From positions 132,260-196,259 of the forward strand of contig NZ_AYPQ01000005.1 of NCBI RefSeq assembly GCF_000633635.1: DNA of 64,000 nucleotides. Reading direction: 5' to 3'. Positions 9,183-62,855 of the stretch are shown here, in pieces (position 1 is the first letter of the stretch; every line of letters starts with the position of its first letter). Origin of the DNA: Enterococcus crotali. GTDB taxonomy: Bacteria; Bacillota; Bacilli; Lactobacillales; Enterococcaceae. The position numbers and the translations under genes are program-made. The notes beneath the pieces were generated by a model that was not told the origin of the DNA, ran no database searches, and saw only the letters and a list, made by a program, of their open reading frames with translations.

Positions 9183-10661
9183 ATGACACAAGTATTAGAT
9201 TTTCTGATGGGGATTTGGGATTATTTTGCAGCGAATATTTTGACACAACCGGCCTTTTTAATTGGGTTTATCGTTCTGCTGGGATATATTTTACTGAAAA
9301 AGCCACTCTATGAAAGCATTGCTGGTTTCTTGAAAGCAACTGTTGGTTACTTGATTTTGACTGTTGGTTCCGGCGGGTTAGTCAATAACTTTCGACCAAT
9401 TCTAGTCGGATTGAAAGAACGTTTTGACTTGGATGCAATGGTGATCGATCCTTATTTTGGACAGAATGCGGTAACTGCGGGAATCGAAGAGACATTTGGA
9501 CGAACATTTAGTGATACGATGATTTTATTATTGATTGCTTTTGTCATGAATATCTTATTGGTTCGCTTCAAAAAATATACGAAGCTACGCGCCGTTTTTA
9601 CGACTGGAAATGTTCAAATCCAACAAGCCGCAACAGCATTTTGGATCTTGTTATTTTGCTTTCCTGATCTAGGTCAAATTCAAATATTATTGATCATGGG
9701 ACTTATTTTAGGCTGTTATTGGGCAGTTGGATCGAATTTAACTGTTGATATTACACAAGACTTAACAGAAGGCGCAGGTTTTGCAATCGCTCACCAGCAA
9801 ATGTTTGGTGTCTATATATTTGCTCGGCTAGCTGAAAAAATGAAAAAGGATAAGAATAATCGAAAACTTGAAGATGTCCAACTTCCCGGATTCTTGTCGA
9901 TTTTCAATGAAAATATGGTTGCAACATCGATTTTGATGCTCTTTTTCTTTGGAATCATTTTAGTAGTATTAGGACCAGCTTATTTGATCGAAGCAGGTTT
10001 TATGACTGAAGGGCAAAGCTTCTTTTTCTATATTTTACAGACTGCTCTATATTTCGCTGTTTATCTAGCAATTTTGCAGTTAGGCGTTCGTACATTTGTT
10101 TCGGAATTGACAGAATCTTTCCAAGGAATCTCCAATACATTATTGCCAGGAGCAGTTCCGGGGATTGATGTAGCGGCAACATTTGGATTTGGTTCACCAA
10201 ATGCTGTAACAATTGGGTTCTTGTTTGGTGCGTTAGGACAATTTATCACGATTGGTTTATTAATTCTATTTAAATCTCCAGTAATCGTCATAGCAGGATT
10301 TATTCCGTTATTCTTTGATAATGCTGTGATTGCTGTTTATGCGAATAATCGTGGTGGATTTAAAGCTGCGTGTATTTTCCCATTTATTTCCGGTGTGATT
10401 CAAGTTTTAGGATCGGCTTTGATAGCAGCGTTTATCGGTTTATCTCAATACGGCGGTTATATTGGTATGTTTGATTGGGCGACAGTTTGGCCAATTATGA
10501 CGATAATGATGAAATATCTTGGTTATATTGGTGTTGGACTAGTAGTCATTTTGCTATTAGCAATTCCACAATTCCAATATCGAGCAAATCCAGAAGGCTA
10601 TTTCTTGATTGCTGAAGATTATGATGAGTATGTCAAAAAAATGACAGCAAAAAATGCTTAG
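9183..10661 (+). CDS. ulaA: PTS ascorbate-specific EIIC permease (UlaA)
   Basis: A 492-residue multi-helix permease of the PTS-AG (SgaT/UlaA) family, the membrane channel that imports L-ascorbate for phosphorylation. It has about ten hydrophobic helices, and family sequences such as GYLILTVGSGGLVNNFRPIL, YFGQNAVTAGIEE and LLPGAVPGIDVAATFGFGSPNAVTIGF are recognisable; the last resembles the substrate-binding core. SD GAAGGGGAG precedes the ATG. A gap of 140 nt with a structured leader separates it from the EIIB gene, unlike the tight spacing upstream. Confidence 0.94.
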   Translation: MTQVLDFLMGIWDYFAANILTQPAFLIGFIVLLGYILLKKPLYESIAGFLKATVGYLILTVGSGGLVNNFRPILVGLKERFDLDAMVIDPYFGQNAVTAGIEETFGRTFSDTMILLLIAFVMNILLVRFKKYTKLRAVFTTGNVQIQQAATAFWILLFCFPDLGQIQILLIMGLILGCYWAVGSNLTVDITQDLTEGAGFAIAHQQMFGVYIFARLAEKMKKDKNNRKLEDVQLPGFLSIFNENMVATSILMLFFFGIILVVLGPAYLIEAGFMTEGQSFFFYILQTALYFAVYLAILQLGVRTFVSELTESFQGISNTLLPGAVPGIDVAATFGFGSPNAVTIGFLFGALGQFITIGLLILFKSPVIVIAGFIPLFFDNAVIAVYANNRGGFKAACIFPFISGVIQVLGSALIAAFIGLSQYGGYIGMFDWATVWPIMTIMMKYLGYIGVGLVVILLLAIPQFQYRANPEGYFLIAEDYDEYVKKMTAKNA

Positions 10662-10667
10662 TTATTA

Positions 10668-10793
10668 TCTAGCTACACGAGCTAGTCTCTCGGAAAAAAG
10701 ATAAAAATGGATAGCGGCAAAGAGAGCCACTCTCAATTTTTACTATTTTTCATTCGAGACTGACGAGCTCGTTGCGCTTTTAAAATTAGGAGG
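10668..10793 (+). promoter_or_regulatory. Repeated structured leader, copy 1, upstream of ulaB
   Basis: An imperfect hairpin of about 126 nt fills the ulaA-ulaB gap. Outer arms: CACGAGCTAGTCTC and GAGACTGACGAGCTCG. Inner arms: CGGAAAAAAGATAAAAAT and ATTTTTACTATTTTTC. Apex: GGC, AAAGAGA, GCC. It ends in TTAGGAGG, the ribosome site of ulaB. Two more copies lie at 25050-25175 (minus) and 61529-61651. Confidence 0.75.
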
Positions 10794-10801
10794 AAATTAA
10801 A

Positions 10802-11101
10802 ATGAGAGTATTAGTATCATGTGCGAATGGTTCTGGAACAAGTTTAATGATGAAAAAAAGTGTGGAAAAGGCGTTAAAAGAACTTGGGTTTAATATTACA
10901 AATATTCACCATTGTGCGATTTCAGAAGGAAAAAGTACGGCAGGACAATATGATGTTGTCTTTTGTCCAATGAATTTTTTGAATATGTTTGATGATGCCA
11001 AGAAAAAAGGAATCACCGTTGTGGGTGTAAAAAATGTAATGTCAGCAAAAGAGATCAGTGAGCGTGTTCAAGAAACAGAATTAGCAGCGAAATTCAAATA
11101 G
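10802..11101 (+). CDS. ulaB: PTS ascorbate-specific EIIB component (UlaB)
   Basis: A 99-residue cytosolic EIIB. MRVLVSCANGSGTSLMMK has the phospho-Cys P-loop (C7 followed by xxGxGTS) typical of lactose/ascorbate-type EIIB. It receives phosphate from UlaC and hands it to ascorbate in the UlaA channel. The Shine-Dalgarno AGGAGG is the 3' end of the repeated leader at 10668-10793, so its translation may be controlled separately from ulaA. Downstream, 116 nt with hairpin potential lead to ulaD. Confidence 0.93.
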   Translation: MRVLVSCANGSGTSLMMKKSVEKALKELGFNITNIHHCAISEGKSTAGQYDVVFCPMNFLNMFDDAKKKGITVVGVKNVMSAKEISERVQETELAAKFK

Positions 11102-23496: not shown

Positions 23497-23692
23497 GGTA
23501 AAATCCGTCGATGCCGTTATTCGTCCTATAGTATTGAACCCGCAAACAAAGCAGGTGGGTTCCACGACTGACAGCTTCGAACTACCAAATGAAAAGGCTT
23601 GTTACCAGCTTAGGTACCAGAAGGATCCCTAGATATCAATAAAATGTTCGGTCAACACACAAAAAAGACAACGCGTACATCACAGATTTACC
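23497..23692 (-). ncRNA. ssrS: 6S-like RNA (Lacto-usp motif)
   Basis: A transcript of about 196 nt is predicted from a good promoter. Its two ends pair over a long distance: 5' GGTAAATCTGTGATG...CGTTGTC with 3' GAC..AACGGCATCG.CGGATTTTACC. Between them are an open internal region and a GAACCC/GGGTTC hairpin. This is the 6S architecture that mimics an open promoter and binds RNA polymerase. The location, directly upstream of a small membrane protein and usp, is that described for Lacto-usp RNA. The fold and context are seen; identity is not confirmed by a covariance search. Confidence 0.75.
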
Positions 23693-23752: not shown

Positions 23753-25042
23753 TTATTTTTTTGTTTTCTTTCCCTTTTTCCACTCTTGAATTCGTTGATA
23801 TTGCTGATGCAGTGCTTGTTCATATTTCCCAGTATCAATCGGTTCGTAATAATGTGCATTTTTTATTTTATCTGGAAGATATTGTTGGTCGACCCAAGCA
23901 TTCTCAAAATTATGCGGATACTGATAACCAATACCACGATTCAACTCTTTTGCACCTGAATAATGGCTATCTCGTAAATGATCCGGGACATCTCCTGCTT
24001 TTCCCTCACGAATATCAGATAAAGCAGCGTCGATGGCACTAATAGCAGAATTTGATTTTGGAGACAGGCACAAATCAATGACCACACTGGCAAGCGGAAT
24101 ACGAGCTTCTGGAAAACCGAGCTTTTCCGCAGCTTGTACAGCTGTGATCGTACGTGCGGCAGCTGGAGGATTTCCTAGACCGATATCTTCATAGGCAATC
24201 ACCATTAAGCGGCGGCAAATAATCGGTAAGTCGCCAGCCTCAACAAGTCTGGCCAGATAATGAAGTGCTGCATCAACATCACTTCCGCGAATCGATTTTT
24301 GAAAAGCAGAAATTACATCGTAATGAGCATCGCCATTTTTATCATGAGTCAAAGCCTTACGTTGAACGCATTCTTCAATGATCGAAAGCGTAAGTTCAAT
24401 TTTATTGTTTTCATTTTTAGGTGTCGATTTTACAGCTAATTCTAATCCATTTAAGGCACTGCGCAAGTCGCCATTTGTTGCACGGGATAAATGCAGTAGT
24501 GCTTTTTCTTCCAAAACAACAGGATATTCGCCTAAACCACGTTCTTTATCGGCTAAGGCTTCTTTGATTGCTTTTTGAATATCTAGCTCTGTTAATGGCT
24601 TTACTTCAAAAATTTGTGTTCGACTGCGAATGGCTGGATTGATCGTAATATACGGATTTTCAGTAGTAGCACCGATCATAATGATTCGGCCACTTTCAAG
24701 ATGAGGCAGTAAAAAGTCTTGTTTTGTTTTGTCTAGACGGTGGACCTCATCCAGTAACAAGATTACAGTACCGCTCATTTTTGCTTCTTCTGCGACGATT
24801 TGCAGATCTTTCTTAGTATCAGTTGCGGCATTTAACAGGCGAAAGGCATAGTTTGTAGACCCTGCAATTGCGCTTGCGATACTGGTCTTACCCGTACCAG
24901 GGGGACCATATAAAATCATAGATGAAAGCATACGAGCTTCTACCATTCTGCGGATGATCTTCCCTGGTCCAACAAGTTGTTGCTGACCAACGACTTCATC
25001 TAAATTACGCGGCCGCATACGGTATGCTAATGGTTTTTGCAT
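23753..25042 (-). CDS. rarA: Replication-associated recombination protein RarA (MgsA)
   Basis: A 429-residue AAA+ ATPase related to clamp loaders and RuvB, acting at stalled replication forks. Walker A GPPGTGKTS is at residues 46-54, Walker B VILLLDEVHRLD follows and IGATTENPYITINPAI carries sensor 1; the C-terminal MgsA domain includes YEDIGLGNPPA and HLRDSHYSGAKELNRG. ATG 25042 follows TAGGAGG, which is the 3' end of the repeated leader at 25050-25175, so rarA expression is expected to depend on that leader. Confidence 0.95.
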   Translation of the reverse strand: MQKPLAYRMRPRNLDEVVGQQQLVGPGKIIRRMVEARMLSSMILYGPPGTGKTSIASAIAGSTNYAFRLLNAATDTKKDLQIVAEEAKMSGTVILLLDEVHRLDKTKQDFLLPHLESGRIIMIGATTENPYITINPAIRSRTQIFEVKPLTELDIQKAIKEALADKERGLGEYPVVLEEKALLHLSRATNGDLRSALNGLELAVKSTPKNENNKIELTLSIIEECVQRKALTHDKNGDAHYDVISAFQKSIRGSDVDAALHYLARLVEAGDLPIICRRLMVIAYEDIGLGNPPAAARTITAVQAAEKLGFPEARIPLASVVIDLCLSPKSNSAISAIDAALSDIREGKAGDVPDHLRDSHYSGAKELNRGIGYQYPHNFENAWVDQQYLPDKIKNAHYYEPIDTGKYEQALHQQYQRIQEWKKGKKTKK

Positions 25043-25049
25043 CAATGAA

Positions 25050-25175
25050 CCTCCTAAATATAAAAGTGAATCGGGCTCGTTAGTCTCGACCGAAAAATAG
25101 GAAAATAGGAGCGTGGCGTTTTTTGCCACAAGCGTATTTTATCTTTTTTCCGAGAGACAAGCTCGAGTAGCTAGA
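25050..25175 (-). promoter_or_regulatory. Repeated structured leader, copy 2, upstream of rarA
   Basis: Read on the minus strand: CTAGCTACTCGAGCTTGTCTC, CGGAAAAAAGATAAAAT, apex GTGGC/GCCAC, CTATTTTTCGGTC, GAGACTAACGAGC, then TTAGGAGG. The apex stem differs in sequence from copies 1 and 3 but still pairs. Confidence 0.75.
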
Positions 25176-25340
25176 CAATAAGTTCTCTATCTATTTATTA
25201 TACCACAAAGAACGTACGTTTGTGTTTAAGCTGGTTTTGGACATAAAAACTAAGAAAACAGTCATTTATAGCACTGATTGTCCATTATTTCAATGGATAA
25301 TAGACATCGATTCGTGTATGATAGGAAGTGGTGAAAAATA

Positions 25341-36293: not shown

Positions 36294-36528
36294 CTATAAA
36301 AAAATCGATGAAAGAACGAGTAGATTTCAAACTGATTGTACAAGAGAAAGTTGCCTTGGCTGAAAGCAACTTCGTTAGAGAAATCGAAAGACATTCTGGA
36401 GATGAACGGAGGAAAAGCCGTTCCGTTACGAGCGTTAATCGTTGGAGGAAAGAGCAATCTTTCGAACTTAGGTGGTACCGCGTGTGTCTATTCACTCGCC
36501 CTTGTATTTATACAAGGGCGAGTTTTTG
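36294..36528 (+). promoter_or_regulatory. T-box leader of hisS-aspS
   Basis: The T-box core AGGTGGTACCGCG (36470-36482) precedes the terminator CTCGCCCTTGTA, loop, TACAAGGGCGAG and T5 (36495-36527). Stem I can be drawn with AGTA-GATTTC paired to GAAATC-GAAAGACATTC; the specifier position reads GAC (Asp) followed by A, with an overlapping CAT (His) as the alternative. Uncharged tRNA would bind and favour the antiterminator, raising synthetase expression. Confidence 0.92.
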
Positions 36529-61509: not shown

Positions 61510-61528
61510 AAGATAAGCGGAGGGAGTA

Positions 61529-61651
61529 GTCAGCGCTACATGGCATCTCGGAAAAAAGATAAAATATAAATGAGGCAAAGACCTCCTCAGTTATATTTTC
61601 CTATTTTTCGGTCAAGGCTGGATGAGCCTGCTACGCTTTTAAATTAGGAGG
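61529..61651 (+). promoter_or_regulatory. Repeated structured leader, copy 3, upstream of the MFS gene
   Basis: CGCTACATGGCATCTCGG, AAAAAAGATAAAATATAA, apex GAGG/CCTC, TTATATTTTCCTATTTTTCGG and CTGCTACGCT, then TTAGGAGG. The long inner stem has about 18 of 21 positions paired. Confidence 0.75.
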
Positions 61652-61655
61652 TATT

Positions 61656-62855
61656 ATGGAAAAAAATGGAACAAAGAAAACTGGGTTGTTGTTAATTGCA
61701 CTGTTTTTAGGCTACACAATGGTATACATCGATAAGCTTTCTGTGGGGTATTCACTGATTCCAATTTCAGCTGAATTTGGATTGGAACCTGCAGCGAAGG
61801 GGATGATCATGAGTGCCTTTTTCTTAGGCTATGCAATCATGCAGATTCCAATGGGACTGGTCATCAATAAAGTAGGTTCACGAATTGTGTTGATTGGTTC
61901 AGTCATCGGAATGGGGCTGTTTTCATTCTTATTTGGTTTTGGAACATCGTTGATCATGTTTATGTCATTACGATTTTTAACTGGGTTGTTAGCACACTCA
62001 GGTTATGCATCATCGGCTAGTAAAGAAGTCACGATGAATTTCCCGCCTGAGAAGCGAACTTTCGCTCAGGGGATCTTGCTGTCATCTTCAGGGGTAGCAG
62101 GTTTTATTGGTCCGTTGGCGTTATCACCGATCATCACAAATGCTGGTTGGAAGAATGCGTATATGATTTTAACTGTATTGGCAGTTGTGATTGCTATTTT
62201 TCTGATTGTGGCTATTCCTAGAAATGAAAAAACGAAAGAGAAAGCAAATGCTATCGCAACGAAAACGGATAAAATCTCTATTTTTGTGATTTGGTCGGAT
62301 ATTCGAGTATGGATTTTATTTCTAAGTTCATTTTTCATCAACTGCTTGTTGTATGGACTTTCAAGTTGGGTACCTAGTTTCTTGACTGGGGAACGTGGCT
62401 TGGACCTAAATGGTGCAGCTGTGATCAGTAGTGTAGGTGGTTTGTTCATGTTGATTGGCTCGATTGGCGGAAGTTATGTTGTGGGAAAATTTTTCCAACA
62501 TAAAGAAAAAGCTGTTGTTGCGATCACAGCTATTTTAGGGGCACTTTCTGCATTCGGTTCTTATTATATCGGTAATCTAGTTTTATTATCGATCGTGATG
62601 GGCTTAGCGAATTTCTTTTTGATCATCTCATTTGTTACGATGATGAGTATTCCATTGCGAATTTTTGAAGGAGCAAAATTTGCGCCAAGTTATGGAACAC
62701 TTGCTACTGGAGGAATCCTAGGCGGTTTTGTTTCACCAACACTGATCGGAAAATTAGTGGAATTATCAAATGGACAGTACATTTCAACATTTATTTTCTT
62801 TCTAGTTGTTGGCTTATTAACGGCTGTGACGATCATGTTTATTAAACAAAAATAG
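61656..62855 (+). CDS. MFS transporter (anion:cation symporter-like)
   Basis: A 399-residue 12-helix permease. The phrase YTMVYIDKLSVGYSLIPISAEFGL with SAFFLGYAIMQIPMGLVINKVGSR, the helix 2-3 motif, resembles the ACS (GudP/ExuT) branch that takes up organic anions. The next gene is an M20 amidohydrolase 56 nt downstream, so an N-acyl or amide-linked amino acid is a likely cargo. The ribosome site AGGAGG is the end of the repeated leader. Confidence 0.88.
   Translation: MEKNGTKKTGLLLIALFLGYTMVYIDKLSVGYSLIPISAEFGLEPAAKGMIMSAFFLGYAIMQIPMGLVINKVGSRIVLIGSVIGMGLFSFLFGFGTSLIMFMSLRFLTGLLAHSGYASSASKEVTMNFPPEKRTFAQGILLSSSGVAGFIGPLALSPIITNAGWKNAYMILTVLAVVIAIFLIVAIPRNEKTKEKANAIATKTDKISIFVIWSDIRVWILFLSSFFINCLLYGLSSWVPSFLTGERGLDLNGAAVISSVGGLFMLIGSIGGSYVVGKFFQHKEKAVVAITAILGALSAFGSYYIGNLVLLSIVMGLANFFLIISFVTMMSIPLRIFEGAKFAPSYGTLATGGILGGFVSPTLIGKLVELSNGQYISTFIFFLVVGLLTAVTIMFIKQK

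Follow-up and report, generated by a model that had tools for sequence, protein, structure and literature searches.

Our analysis indicates that the structured leaders in this stretch of Enterococcus crotali DNA are probably copies of a non-coding palindromic DNA repeat, MITE- or BOX-like, that has spread through the genome, and not instances of a dedicated regulatory RNA. The spread is evident from the copy number, the tandem arrays, the filled and empty sites, the covarying arms, and the position of the 3′ end at gene edges. About 70 arrays in the host genome form the 5′ leader right before the ribosome site of the downstream gene; if the repeat is mobile, it offers a way for a single element to rewrite a large number of leaders together, and placement at gene edges calls for a targeting mechanism.

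The window (the whole stretch analysed, 64,000 nt) contains the three leader copies from which a sequence-only reading had started, all in sense orientation and each running into TTAGGAGG ahead of a start codon (Table 1; positions of covariance-model matches were converted from contig positions of the host genome, G000). The blocks described there as common to the three copies, and their apex stems, are borne out, the third copy having a degenerate 5′ end. Copy 1, a single copy, separates a PTS IIC gene from a PTS IIB gene. The matches of the PTS IIB protein to ascorbate IIB are all below cut-off, the preceding gene has an ascorbate IIC match above cut-off, and the name "ulaB" is, judging from sequence, plausible for the PTS IIB gene. 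Copy 2, likewise single, is positioned between a promoter-like TATAAT and the Shine-Dalgarno sequence (SD) of rarA. The RNA folds of the three copies, taken singly, beat those of dinucleotide shuffles (z of −3.70, −2.22, and −2.20). The window also contains a 6S RNA downstream of rarA (23498-23691, minus strand) and, away from the elements, a T-box leader (36299-36506, plus strand), both above the Rfam gathering score. On the element itself, Rfam gives no match at the gathering score in the window or at 14 loci of other orders, and no match by E-value at 9 loci, in agreement with the earlier failure to match it to any known riboswitch, T-box, or leader; readings as a riboswitch, a T-box (the one in the window lies elsewhere), or a thermosensor are unsupported.

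Table 1. Coordinates of the element copies, adjoining features, and associated loci (window positions unless a contig or locus is given)
Feature	Position	Strand	Evidence or detail
Palindromic element, copy 1	10661..10790	+	G000:C5:142920-143049, 134.9 bits; fold
Conserved core CTCGGAAAAAAGATAAAA, copy 1	10689..10706	+	18-mer pattern search
SD AGGAGG, abutting 3′ end of copy 1	10788..10793	+	sequence
PTS IIB protein gene (99 aa), downstream of copy 1	10802..11101	+	PF02302
Palindromic element, copy 2	25053..25182	-	G000:C5:157312-157441, 124.7 bits; fold
Conserved core, copy 2	25137..25154	-	18-mer pattern search
SD AGGAGG, abutting copy 2	25050..25055	-	sequence
RarA/MgsA-type AAA+ ATPase gene, downstream of copy 2	23753..25042	-	profile matches
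Palindromic element, copy 3, degenerate 5′ end	61522..61649	+	G000:C5:193781-193908, 98 bits; fold
Conserved core, copy 3	61547..61564	+	18-mer pattern search
SD AGGAGG, abutting copy 3	61646..61651	+	sequence
MFS transporter gene, downstream of copy 3	61656..62855	+	profile matches
TnpB-family gene loci	L129 (E. ureasiticus), L162 (E. caccae), L195 (E. moraviensis)		6, 3, and 3 element copies, respectively
Arrays preceded by AACGTTGTTAC-like module	G000 C1:816834, C3:242057, C6:74768, C7:184688, C8:28718; L244		

The sequence-only reading had proposed a covariance model of the three copies; a model built from 30 aligned copies, with a structure drawn by hand on the basis of the RNAalifold result for those copies, reveals that the feature is far larger than was noted. 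In the host genome (3.90 Mb, 20 contigs), the 18-mer CTCGGAAAAAAGATAAAA occurs 114 times (51 + 63) with up to 3 mismatches, versus 25 times for a reversed-pattern control, and the covariance model yields at least 141 matches in 87 arrays (150 of 3514 candidates scored), so that 141 copies is probably a lower bound. Of 93 core-pattern hits with up to 2 mismatches, 4 fall outside the covariance-model matches. The arrays comprise 52 single, 21 double, 11 triple, 2 quadruple, and 1 sextuple, with neighbouring copies spaced by 117-123 nt in 44 of 54 pairs, corresponding to a tandem period of about 121 nt. The genome thus carries many short, non-coding, palindromic copies. A second repeated module, with a AACGTTGTTAC-like end, is located 5′ of several arrays and suggests a composite, BOX-like architecture.

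Each unit of the repeat forms a long, imperfect palindrome measuring about 113 bp. Specifically, proceeding inward, the outermost AGC/GCT pairing with a small internal loop is followed by a variable helix of the GYGGGCT/AGCCCRC type; by a TGAACG-like unpaired bulge, present in the 3′ arm only; by a helix of the AGCYTC/GARGCT type and then TCGG facing (A)GTC; by an almost invariant AAAAAA/TTTTTC stretch with an AGAT/CCTA mismatch loop; and, innermost, by a variable helix and then an apex stem such as GTGGC/GCCAC. Variant copies at two host-genome loci (L018 and L029) have an additional stem-loop, of the CCTAAGAGCTAAAGCTCTAAGG type, in the 5′ arm. The proposal that pairing is conserved while sequence varies gains strong support from the 30 aligned copies: both-sided changes are present in 21 of 36 pairs and 91.4% of cells are paired, neither value being reached in any of 500 shuffles, and shifting the partners by 1-3 columns abolishes the signal. 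The count of further pair types (35) is below the shuffled mean (38.6) because wobble (G.U) types are scarce.

The 3′ end of the element is placed non-randomly. In the host genome, 70 of the 87 arrays are located directly before an SD and start codon in sense (SD-flush, defined as a start codon that lies no more than 40 nt into the flank examined), and none is equally close in antisense; five arrays have an antisense SD and start at 41-200 nt. The SD hexamer begins at either of two adjacent positions in 60 of the 70 SD-flush arrays. The same arrangement is observed in other named species, with 81 of 107 arrays SD-flush in sense and none in antisense (107 of 111 arrays, four at stretch edges being left out). 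The 3′ flank of the covariance model contains SD letters from some seed copies; inner tandem copies, which have no SD, are detected equally well. The downstream genes, judged by eye from their N-termini in the host genome and in the named species, look unrelated, in line with what had been said of the first three; those of the host genome include genes that we take to be dnaA-, tsf-, codY-, clpB-, and serS-like.

Elsewhere, the same physical end of the element faces a gene edge of another kind. In ten outgroup genomes of other genera, the 3′ end is located within 10 nt of an antisense stop codon in 22 of 46 arrays, and six of the 46 adjoin a start, these counts being manual, made with crude ORF calling, and carrying no background rate (the 46 arrays derive from 65 of 68 matches, after exclusion of two duplicates and one opposite-strand match). 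The stop-adjacent arrays are concentrated in three genomes (G045, 9 of 11; G058, 5 of 8; G027, 4 of 5). Among 21 arrays of other orders, six adjoin the stop of a long frame and one is SD-flush; in one such genome (G109), none of five arrays adjoins a stop or an SD. The identical end thus faces the gene edge in several lineages, not everywhere. Within Enterococcus, stop-flush placement is only slightly over the test background: 3 of 16 non-SD arrays (one of them also with an SD) versus 6 of 70 SD-flush arrays in the host genome, and 7 of 26 versus 7 of 81 in the named species. At loci L212 (G058), L346 (G045), and L233 (G027), from two families, the element is located, by eye, right after rpoB-like stop codons, and at L212 and L233 it precedes rpoC-like starts; the site either is ancient or has been targeted more than once. 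The end of a non-SD array in the host genome (C2:411078-411330) recurs in several species (L114, L179, and L204), and is followed by TTGAGAATGATTTTCATTCT, which we take to be a Fur-box-like motif.

Placement exclusively in sense before SDs is exactly what would be expected of a leader element, and it counts against a mobile repeat. A cis-regulatory leader RNA, the sense hairpin of which would bind a protein or ligand and gate the SD at a fixed distance, is also consistent with the near-constant SD spacing, the strong covariation, folds that beat shuffles, the conserved core of the internal loop, and the long life of the sites (see below). A selected RNA helix, however, is expected to have G.U far outnumber A.C on the transcribed strand, and control RNAs from the same genomes behave accordingly: G.U versus A.C is 144 versus 13 of 1065 cells for 6S RNA (26 sequences) and 99 versus 1 of 597 cells for SRP RNA (25 sequences), with G.U staying above A.C in the best and worst thirds of the control sets. 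For the element, read on the mRNA strand, G.U versus A.C is 182 versus 231 of 4793 cells (141 copies, host genome), and in no element set examined is G.U clearly above A.C on that strand; the wobble counts thus lack the mark of RNA-level selection expected of a cis-regulatory leader. Cells in such counts are not independent, and counts are therefore reported rather than p-values. In addition, the antisense fold is better or equal in 107 of the 141 copies (in the other 34 the sense fold is more stable; means are −31.2 kcal/mol for sense and −34.5 kcal/mol for the complementary strand), the downstream genes are unrelated by eye, other genera often have the element in antisense after stop codons, and tandem copies number up to six. 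We consequently regard a dedicated leader RNA as improbable. Between the two possibilities raised by the sequence-only reading, a shared cis-regulatory RNA and a mobile hairpin, the first retains the sense orientation, the fixed SD spacing, and the covariation but fails the wobble test, while the second is the better fit, given about 140 copies, tandem arrays, unrelated downstream genes, and filled and empty sites.

The wobble counts also report on which strand folds. The complement of the leader mRNA folds better than the mRNA strand, both among well-paired Enterococcus copies and among those from other orders. In particular, for the 53 best-paired copies of the host genome, G.U versus A.C on the mRNA strand is 7 versus 33, with A.C exceeding G.U in 14 columns and the reverse in 4; the lower pairing classes give 37 versus 67 (41 copies), 104 versus 103 (35 copies), and 27 versus 23 (last 7 copies), five gappy copies being excluded and the 0.90 pairing cut being our choice. 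The named species give 133 versus 251 for 209 distinct copies (among 220 copies of at least 60 bits, out of 241 found), 24 versus 93 for the 125 best-paired, and 43 versus 46 for the worst 16. For 28 copies of other orders, the counts are 3 versus 38 of 1005 cells, distributed over many columns and genomes, and 3 versus 21 of 837 cells with a freshly predicted structure. An earlier reading of the element as a DNA palindrome with no strand preference was dropped, since the counts by column, those for the named species, and those for the other orders favour the complementary strand. Lactobacillales outgroups have no strand bias (33 versus 37 of 2193 cells, 64 distinct copies), and one of them (G058) tilts the opposite way (16 versus 10); poorly paired copies have no strand bias either. 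Because G.T is the mildest DNA mismatch, the test identifies the strand and does not distinguish RNA from single-stranded DNA. The comparison of G.U with A.C indicates that covariation resembling that of a regulatory RNA can arise from a DNA palindrome and, in addition, tells which strand folds, and it should be useful for other RNA candidates based on covariation.

A function of the complementary strand, either in a putative antisense RNA in Enterococcus leaders or as a hairpin for 3′-end stability or processing after stops, would account for the wobble bias toward that strand and for the stop-codon placement in other genera, which puts that strand in the mRNA. Most Enterococcus copies, however, have that strand opposite the mRNA, and the Lactobacillales outgroups are without bias; we judge such a function, too, hardly probable.

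Comparison of orthologous sites reveals both filled and empty states. At the rarA site, seven of eight compared genomes carry either one to two copies or a remnant, and G008 is empty; by eye, in five further genus members (G007, G006, G005, G003, and G014) the stretch from promoter to SD is short and free of the element. At the PTS site, the element is present in six of eight compared genomes, the copies in G002, G012, and G008 being weak or degenerate (53, 65, and 33 bits, respectively), and the site is empty in G017 and G018. Over about 250 kb, the host genome and G010 share five sites, with copy numbers of 1 versus 2, 1 versus 1, 1 versus 3, 2 versus 1, and 1 versus 2 (the last weak), the copy 3 site having three copies in G010; one G010 array is absent from the host genome, and one host-genome array is without comparable flanks. 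Losses and gains are not separable at every site. At the rarA site and at the G010 site absent from the host genome, the native AAGGAGG is kept while the preceding bases differ, indicating that the element does not bring the SD. A TA target duplication is possible from the tandem junctions, the three usable comparisons of empty and filled sites falling short of proof.

The sites are long-lived, while arms and copy number change. Of 361 copies, 145 have their closest relative within the same array; when another species has an orthologous site, the ortholog is the nearest copy in 134 of 359 comparisons, versus 24 by chance, indicating long-lived sites, as function would predict. The long-lived orthologous sites, and the lack of strand bias in Lactobacillales outgroups and in poorly paired copies, count against a mobile repeat. 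An inert old repeat that neither moves nor functions at present, and that stays palindromic solely through template-switch repair of imperfect palindromes and conversion between copies, would be consistent with both-sided changes with few intervening wobbles, with the close likeness of copies of one array, and with the many degraded copies. Its orientation and gene-edge placement, however, are far from random, and symmetric repair would not give a strand bias in well-paired copies. Equal occurrence in both orientations and a lack of significant covariation had been named in advance as signs of an inert repeat; SD-flush arrays instead number 70 in sense versus 0 in antisense, and covariation is significant in the 30 copies, indicating that the element is not a plain inert repeat. 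We consider this alternative very improbable.

Every one of the 22 genus members searched, the host genome among them, carries the element, which occurs patchily elsewhere in Lactobacillales and in other orders of Bacilli. Among relatives, 38 of 60 genomes match at E ≤ 0.001, with highest per-genome counts of at least 56 under the stricter filters of that scan; a sample of 121 genomes from the class contains 13 with a match at E ≤ 1e-6, of which nine belong to orders other than Lactobacillales. A pattern scan of named genomes has nine Enterococcus species or strains and Isobaculum melis among the matches listed. Plasmid and phage collections, searched in distant mode with one copy as query, gave no match. 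The features common to the orders are the ends (TCTAGCT...GCTTTT or variants) and the 3′-arm bulge; the end types, given for comparison with Bacillaceae repeats, are TCTAGCTCCAGCGCC and GGCGCTTCCGCTTTT. The AAAAAAGATAAA core is present in Enterococcus, Carnobacterium-like, and Streptococcus-like copies, the latter two likenesses being judged from gene sequences, and is absent from copies of other orders. In two genomes of other orders, purine and lysine riboswitches are located upstream of element copies (L364 and L376). At three Enterococcus loci (Table 1), element copies lie directly upstream of a TnpB-family gene (NCBIfam guided_TnpB, above cut-off), with a HAD-like gene downstream; the TnpB-family protein has GITLG in place of the Asp of the active enzyme and, we assume, resembles RNA-guided TldR repressors.

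The family is best read as mobile or formerly mobile, non-autonomous palindromic repeats. In a mechanism of this kind, copying or insertion of the repeat would proceed, or would once have proceeded, through a single-stranded, folded form, the complement of the Enterococcus leaders, whose unpaired GAAC-like bulge and AGAT/CCTA loop could serve to mark the strand; a putative recombinase acting in trans would move it, and a targeting rule would place it at gene edges. Seated before an SD, it would become a 5′ leader hairpin, a leader by position, with possible side effects on mRNA stability or translation. The element has no linked transposase or recombinase, which counts against the mobile reading. 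A Y1 transposase (PF01797) has no match in the host genome and nine other copy-bearing members of the genus (10 of 22), so that Y1 is not needed, and it was rejected as the mover: several Y1-rich genomes, including G029 (11 matches) and G056 (10 matches), are without an element match, and Y1 is absent from many carriers. One further genome (G032) has 10 Y1 matches and 2 weak element matches. The more specific proposal, that these are strand-specific hairpin elements of several Bacilli orders that move as a folded single strand and owe their placement to a system recognizing gene edges, is tentative and, on balance, unlikely. If true, it would define a class of mobile element that lands at translation signals (the SD in sense, the stop in antisense) and makes itself the leader or trailer of dozens of unrelated genes.

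The open-licence literature, searched also with sequence strings of the element, contains no description of it; it may well have been described elsewhere before, especially as regards the copies in other orders. Integron attC sites have a variable sequence, a conserved fold, and unpaired strand marks, are folded from the bottom strand, and are located close after stop codons; the element resembles them in these features, by description, their R and L boxes and the integrase aside. BOX is made of the sequence modules boxA, boxB, and boxC, and the element probably differs from it in this respect. With REP sequences and their RAYT/Y1 transposases (PMC2817692, PMC3733652), the element shares dispersed hairpins and an expectation of strand-specific folding; unlike REP (20-40 bp, with a tag tetranucleotide), it has 10 of 22 carriers in which the Y1 gene is missing. 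Efa-1 of E. faecalis, as described (PMC2267715), is likewise an intergenic structured repeat in Enterococcus, with 65 copies, and could be related to the element; it differs, in a comparison by description and not by sequence, in having 163 nt and two adjacent stem-loops. The palindromic ERIC and YPAL repeats of enterobacteria (PMC2229807) are similarly co-transcribed with genes and have filled and empty sites, and for ERIC orientation matters for effects on mRNA; they differ, again as compared by description, in taxa and lengths. The BOX, RUP, and SPRITE repeats of Streptococcus pneumoniae (PMC3049150), compared by description rather than by sequence, are alike in having about 100 intergenic copies, a similar length (RUP, about 107 bp), modular tandem units (BOX), predicted hairpins, slow turnover, and neighbours of no functional class. 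That source reports their over-representation between convergent genes and their near absence beyond pneumococcus/mitis and S. suis; the element, in contrast, precedes SDs in sense and spans several families of Bacilli. By analogy, the element appears to stand closest to the small dispersed repeats of the class that takes in BOX/RUP/SPRITE and ERIC/YPAL.
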